From Candidatus Bathyarchaeota archaeon (GTDB lineage Archaea > Thermoproteota > Bathyarchaeia > Bathyarchaeales > Bathyarchaeaceae): DNA of 34,524 nucleotides. Every line of letters begins with the position of its first letter. The first letter of the stretch is position 1. Shown in pieces: positions 4,574 through 11,144 of this stretch. A model generated the notes under the pieces. It did no database searches. It saw nothing but the letters and a program-made list of their open reading frames with translations, and was not told the origin of the DNA. The stretch spans positions 585,352-619,875 of the forward strand of contig CP070679.1 of the NCBI GenBank assembly GCA_020352535.1, given 5' to 3'. The translations under genes were made by a program, and so were the position numbers.

Positions 4574-4663
4574 TGGTGCGGTCGCCGGGAATTGAACCCG
4601 GGATTGCAGGCTTGGAAGGCTTACACCGAAGTCTGTGTCCTAACCAGACTAGACCACGACCGC
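4574..4663 (-). tRNA. tRNA-Gly (UCC) with a 12-nt intron at position 29/30, CCA encoded
   Basis: Acceptor stem GCGGTCG pairs with CGACCGC; the discriminator is A and CCA is encoded. The D arm and T arm (CCGGG, TTCAATT, CCCGG) are normal. The region between D arm and variable loop is 12 bases too long. Removing 4621-4632 gives a perfect anticodon arm, CAGGC CTTCCAA GCCTG, with anticodon UCC. The acceptor ends match the tRNA-Gly(GCC) gene at 10870-10946 in this window, which supports the glycine identity. The gene lies 86 bases downstream of the ABC transporter operon on the same strand. Confidence 0.92.
4621..4632 (-). other. 12-nt bulge-helix-bulge intron in tRNA-Gly(UCC)
   Basis: The intron reads ACTTCGGTGTAA on the minus strand, between mature nucleotides 29 and 30. 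Exon ACAC pairs with intron GTGT to form the 4-bp central helix. The flanking three-nucleotide bulges are AG^A and AA^G, cut between their second and third bases, and AGG pairs with CCT as the outer exon helix. This matches a relaxed substrate of the archaeal tRNA splicing endonuclease. Confidence 0.85.
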
Positions 4664-11040: not shown

Positions 11041-11144
11041 TGGTGCCGCGGGGGAGATTTGAACTCCCGACAACCCGGTCTTCAGCGTCACCCTCAATGG
11101 CGTACCATCAAGTCGGGTGCTCTCCCAGTCTGAGCTACCGCGGC
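11041..11144 (-). tRNA. tRNA-Phe (GAA) with a 27-nt intron at position 30/31, CCA encoded
   Basis: Acceptor GCCGCGG pairs with CCGCGGC, discriminator A, CCA encoded. The D stem is GCTC/GAGC and the T arm is GGGAG TTCAAAT CTCCC. Removing 11087-11113 gives a perfect anticodon arm, CCCGG CTGAAGA CCGGG, with anticodon GAA and a five-base variable loop. No good tRNA fold exists without removing the insert. The gene is transcribed towards tRNA-Gly(GCC) about 95 bases away and has its own TATA-like element. Confidence 0.93.
11087..11113 (-). other. 27-nt bulge-helix-bulge intron in tRNA-Phe(GAA)
   Basis: The insert lies between mature nucleotides 30 and 31. Exon CACC (11116-11119) pairs with intron GGTG (11089-11092) as the 4-bp core. 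The bulges are CG^A and AC^G. Inside, CTTGATGG and CCATTGAG make an 8-bp helix (two G-U pairs) closed by a TACG loop. This is a clear splicing-endonuclease substrate at a non-canonical position. Confidence 0.88.

Follow-up and report, generated by a model that had tools for sequence, protein, structure and literature searches.

Analysis of a 34,524-nucleotide stretch of a Bathyarchaeia genome (the window; genome G000) identified, on the minus strand at 4663-4577, a tRNA-Gly(UCC) gene in which a 12-nt insert, ACTTCGGTGTAA, splits tRNA positions 29 and 30. We interpret this insert, with a probability of about 95%, as a short EndA-type intron at the non-canonical site 29/30 that would be cut by an (alpha-beta)2 EndA and its exons joined by RtcB, the cutting, ligation and enzyme assembly being predictions. 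From the sequence comparisons described below, the 12-nt intron is almost certainly real and ACTTCGGTGTAA almost certainly removed by the splicing enzyme.

Gene and insert boundaries

The gene was read as follows:

4633-4663, minus strand: 5' exon, tRNA-Gly(UCC) positions 1-29; the junction equals that of intronless orthologues
4621-4632, minus strand: predicted 12-nt intron ACTTCGGTGTAA at site 29/30; 34 genomes have orthologous introns at this site, 12-32 nt long
4577-4620, minus strand: 3' exon, tRNA-Gly(UCC) positions 30-73, with anticodon UCC at 4616-4614; from sequence and Rfam
4574-4576, minus strand: encoded 3' CCA, which follows A73 in most relatives too

Without ACTTCGGTGTAA the anticodon arm reads CAGGC/CTTCCAA/GCCTG, the perfect 5-bp stem and loop claimed in an earlier note on this DNA, with a UCC anticodon. 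When all 12-nt removals within the region were tried, only one regained the five stem pairs; with ACTTCGGTGTAA removed all stems of the tRNA were whole, and the predicted spliced product was a standard 75-nt tRNA. When the 17-nt region was shuffled 200,000 times, some 12-nt removal repaired the stem in 4.3%, and stem repair together with a 4-bp helix at the same site occurred in 0.05% (~1/2,000). The earlier note's intron call, with boundaries at 4621-4632 and a Gly(UCC) isotype, agrees with this unique removal, with the helix at the same junction and with the orthologues, and the pairing that it had proposed between ACAC (4638-4635) and GTGT (4626-4623), with AG^A and AA^G as the bulges at these splice sites, was likewise found. 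Before removal of the insert the gene still scored 48.4 bits as a tRNA in Rfam, with an insertion forced into the anticodon arm. ARAGORN in default mode could not assign the anticodon, and in intron-aware mode misplaced the intron to give CCC, which is wrong with respect to UCC.

Other tRNA genes of this genome also contain introns. The minus-strand gene at 11044-11144 of the window was called Leu(UAA) by ARAGORN in intron mode; subtraction of 27 nt (11113-11087, ACTTGATGGTACGCCATTGAGGGTGAC) at 30/31 leaves CCCGG/CTGAAGA/CCGGG, a tRNA-Phe(GAA) whose non-canonical intron has a long inner helix. A tRNA-Met(CAU) gene (L014, G000:C1:885640-885732, minus strand) carries an 18-nt intron with a bulge-helix-bulge (BHB) motif, apparently at 30/31. 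A tRNA-Arg(UCU) gene (L010, G000:C1:1217432-1217517, minus strand) is interrupted at the canonical 37/38 by an intron of 11 nt, shorter than that of tRNA-Gly(UCC).

Orthologous genes with and without the insert

Orthologues were sought in 60 relatives and then, with a covariance model, in 257 genomes, and the gene was widely found. An insert is present in at least 34 related genomes; in all 34 whose insert-bearing orthologues were read, it lies between the same two nucleotides. Its length ranges from 12 nt (six genomes) to 32 nt and its sequence is variable, with exons nearly fixed. In an alignment of the 29 distinct intron-bearing sequences all five anticodon-stem pairs formed after removal (29/29). 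Many relatives have an uninterrupted gene of 74-76 nt that is continuous across the predicted junction, CACAG joined to GCCTTCCAAGCCTG, and the intronless G005 and G035 carry GACACAGGCCTTCCAAGCCTG, identical in the anticodon arm to the spliced G000 prediction. These intronless orthologues with the predicted junction are the strongest evidence for taking exactly these 12 nt as the intron. The distribution is patchy: families f1, f5, f7 and f9 of the order each include genes with the insert as well as intronless ones. One intronless gene (L166, G017:C46:2105-2180) comes from the same genus as the intron-bearing G009; its sequence is like that of another family and possibly lies on a contaminant contig.

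Were the 12 nt retained, the mature tRNA would have an unusually long anticodon arm. Other good-energy folds are possible for the whole precursor, as this would allow, but the variability of the insert in length and sequence beside nearly fixed exons, its absence from many relatives and the conservation of BHB pairing at its ends make retention very improbable, and removal of the insert as an intron is preferred.

The earlier note had also considered that an uninterrupted tRNA-Gly(UCC) copy might exist. None was found by a CTTCCAA-arm search of six relatives that are 92-100% complete (G001, G002, G003, G014, G030 and G032), each of which has one tRNA-like CTTCCAA Gly arm, that of the interrupted gene; G000 itself is 77% complete. 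Degenerate second tRNA-Gly copies that keep the intron occur in G003 (L151, G003:C4:129182-129255) and G010 (L152, G010:C155:172-254) and are apparently pseudogenes. Such extra copies in relatives, and the incompleteness of the G000 genome, could be taken to suggest that the interrupted gene is dead or damaged and that its role is filled by another tRNA-Gly(UCC) gene. Every stem is intact after splicing, however; of the genes that match the anticodon arm used in the search, the near-complete relatives have the interrupted version only, and the interrupted gene is conserved across the family. A dead gene is thus highly unlikely.

The predicted splice motif

Elements of the predicted motif are, in the order of transcription:

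4639-4641, minus strand: outer helix 5' strand AGG, tRNA positions 21-23; pairs with CCT
4635-4638, minus strand: exon strand ACAC of the central 4-bp helix, tRNA positions 24-27; ACTC in two relatives
4632-4634, minus strand: 5' splice-site bulge AG^A, within an 8-nt terminal loop; from pairing and fold
4623-4626, minus strand: intron strand GTGT of the central helix; GAGT or GAGG where the exon strand is ACTC
4620-4622, minus strand: 3' splice-site bulge AA^G; from pairing and fold
4617-4619, minus strand: outer helix 3' strand CCT, tRNA positions 31-33; pairs with AGG

Exon and intron form a central helix of 4 bp, each splice site follows the second base of its 3-nt bulge, and a 3-bp outer exon-exon helix (AGG/CCT) closes the motif outside. 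On the intron side the 12-nt introns can form at most one pair, a C-G (once U-G) closing a triloop, in 6/6 orthologues. The statement in the earlier note that no separate helix forms on the intron side holds for helices of two or more pairs, but has to allow for this single pair. The strict hBHBh' motif has exon-side and intron-side outer helices of at least two Watson-Crick pairs each (definition quoted in PMC7714728); with 3 bp on the exon side and at most 1 bp on the intron side, the 12-nt intron lies outside it. Relaxed hBH/BHL (bulge-helix-loop) motifs have one bulge between two helices, the second splice site being located in a loop, an arrangement found here, and the isolated mini-helix folded exactly in this way, upholding a reading of the motif as the known relaxed hBH/BHL form. 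For the whole precursor the best fold with the central helix forced was -29.8 kcal/mol, against an overall optimum of -32.6 kcal/mol. The BHL motif is not, then, the computed optimum of the whole precursor, being ~3 kcal/mol worse, yet as modelled it is plausible.

Across the 29 aligned sequences 93% of cells in the splice-motif helices were paired, compared with at most ~51% with slid partners. One central-helix pair changes from A-U to U-A, on both sides, in two genomes of two families, and the slid partner abolishes this signal. At the outermost position of the central helix 16/29 orthologues have A-U and 13/29 have A.G; the intron base opposite A24 (alignment A2, column 39) is U (16) or G (13) with no case of A or C, and the A.G form recurs in three families. 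Most helix positions are invariant, which leaves little covariation support. The helix kept between exon and the 3' part of the intron, the restored arm and the orthologues together place the insert among putative archaeal EndA-spliced tRNA introns, which are characterized by a standard tRNA structure after removal, a central helix and the predicted junction in orthologues that have no insert.

Some longer orthologues (G010, G019, G025, G030) have 3-4 intron-internal pairs, giving a full BHB, and sequence comparison suggests that the 12-nt form is a short BHL version of this orthologous intron. It is conceivable, though we would put it at somewhat below even odds, that one 29/30 intron ranges from a full BHB (some of 16-32 nt) to the minimal 12-nt BHL, with intronless genes in the same families; any direction of length change among the orthologues we infer from their sequences. 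If true, it would provide a natural series in which to test the minimum size of an EndA substrate and the shrinkage and loss of tRNA introns. The length series from full BHB to minimal BHL, which bears on the lower size limit of EndA substrates, is the most useful part of these data.

Proposed splicing enzyme and comparison with known systems

In the proposed mechanism, exon nucleotides 24-27 of the precursor would pair with the 3' part of the intron and 21-23 with 31-33, a local fold that would block the D and anticodon arms and expose AG^A and AA^G. An (alpha-beta)2 endonuclease with a catalytic subunit of the Crenarchaea-specific-loop type would then cut both splice sites, releasing the 12-nt intron, and RtcB would join the exons to give the standard 75-nt tRNA. 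A guide-RNA role for the intron was set aside, 12 nt being too short.

The G000 genome is a single scaffold of 1.36 Mb with 23 tRNA matches; a search of it for archaeal 16S rRNA gave no match. Its placement therefore relies on EndA, which shares 60-85% identity with 80 loci among the matches listed, nearly all labelled Bathyarchaeota. The EndA alpha gene is intact and, by alignment, has the active-site set Tyr/His/Lys, while its loop K40-P41-K42 aligns with Aeropyrum pernix K44-P45-R46 and has the Lys-Pro/Val-basic pattern of the Crenarchaea-specific loop (motif defined in PMC12397907). An RtcB ligase gene is also present. Pfam searches gave two EndA matches in 48/61 genomes, the second type in relatives lacking catalytic residues, like beta subunits, and one EndA gene each in G000 and G001. 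The latter result might suggest that the intron is real but that only a homotetrameric, alpha-only enzyme exists, which would then have to process a relaxed motif in some unexpected way. A beta homologue was, however, found in G000 as an N-terminal fragment of 72 residues running into a 100-N gap that interrupts the gene (L155, G000:C1:1219881-1220096), whereupon a homotetrameric-only EndA was dropped; together with the second EndA type in relatives this leaves the alpha-only enzyme very improbable. The same gap means that the single-contig genome is scaffolded. An (alpha-beta)2 enzyme is the preferred reading, and such EndA with lineage-specific loops are reported to accept relaxed motifs, the loops being of importance (PMC6379350, PMC12397907).

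Published archaeal tRNA introns measure 11-129 nt, with medians mostly of 12-25 (PMC4090602), relaxed hBH/BHL motifs have already been described (PMC6379350, PMC4090602), and 673 non-canonical introns were counted in 217 archaeal genomes by the authors of tRNAscan-SE 2.0 (PMC8450103). The description of 12 nt as very short in the earlier note is fair to the extent that it is near the lower end, but the length is ordinary within the published range and beside the 11-nt intron of G000; that 29/30 is not the canonical 37/38 was correct, although a review already lists it as a non-canonical site (PMC4090602). With a known site, known lengths and that 11-nt intron, the finding therefore fits an already known intron class. 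Position, size and relaxed motif are each known in archaea, which makes the gene a new example that is well supported but ordinary. No dedicated description of non-canonical tRNA introns of this Bathyarchaeia lineage was found in the open-access literature searched; the analysis adds well-supported ones for such a lineage and corrects a gene that a standard tool leaves unassigned or reads as CCC instead of UCC.

With the archaeal non-canonical BHB introns at 29/30 (PMC4090602) the insert shares its site, BHB-type pairing, short length and presumed EndA processing, whereas it differs from those listed in being in a Bathyarchaeia tRNA-Gly(UCC) and known from pairing and orthology alone. Like other relaxed hBH/BHL motifs it has a central 4-bp helix and an outer helix, one 3-nt bulge and a 5' splice site in the terminal loop, but this loop is very small (8 nt), with one C-G pair and a triloop still possible. 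The alpha subunit matches those of (alpha-beta)2 EndA with a Crenarchaea-specific loop (A. pernix 3p1z/3ajv; also 2cv8 and 2zyz) over nearly its full length (E = 2e-44 to 2e-28) and has the K-P-basic loop motif in common with the A. pernix enzyme; unlike the latter, the G000 enzyme is Bathyarchaeial and a putative complex known from its genes.
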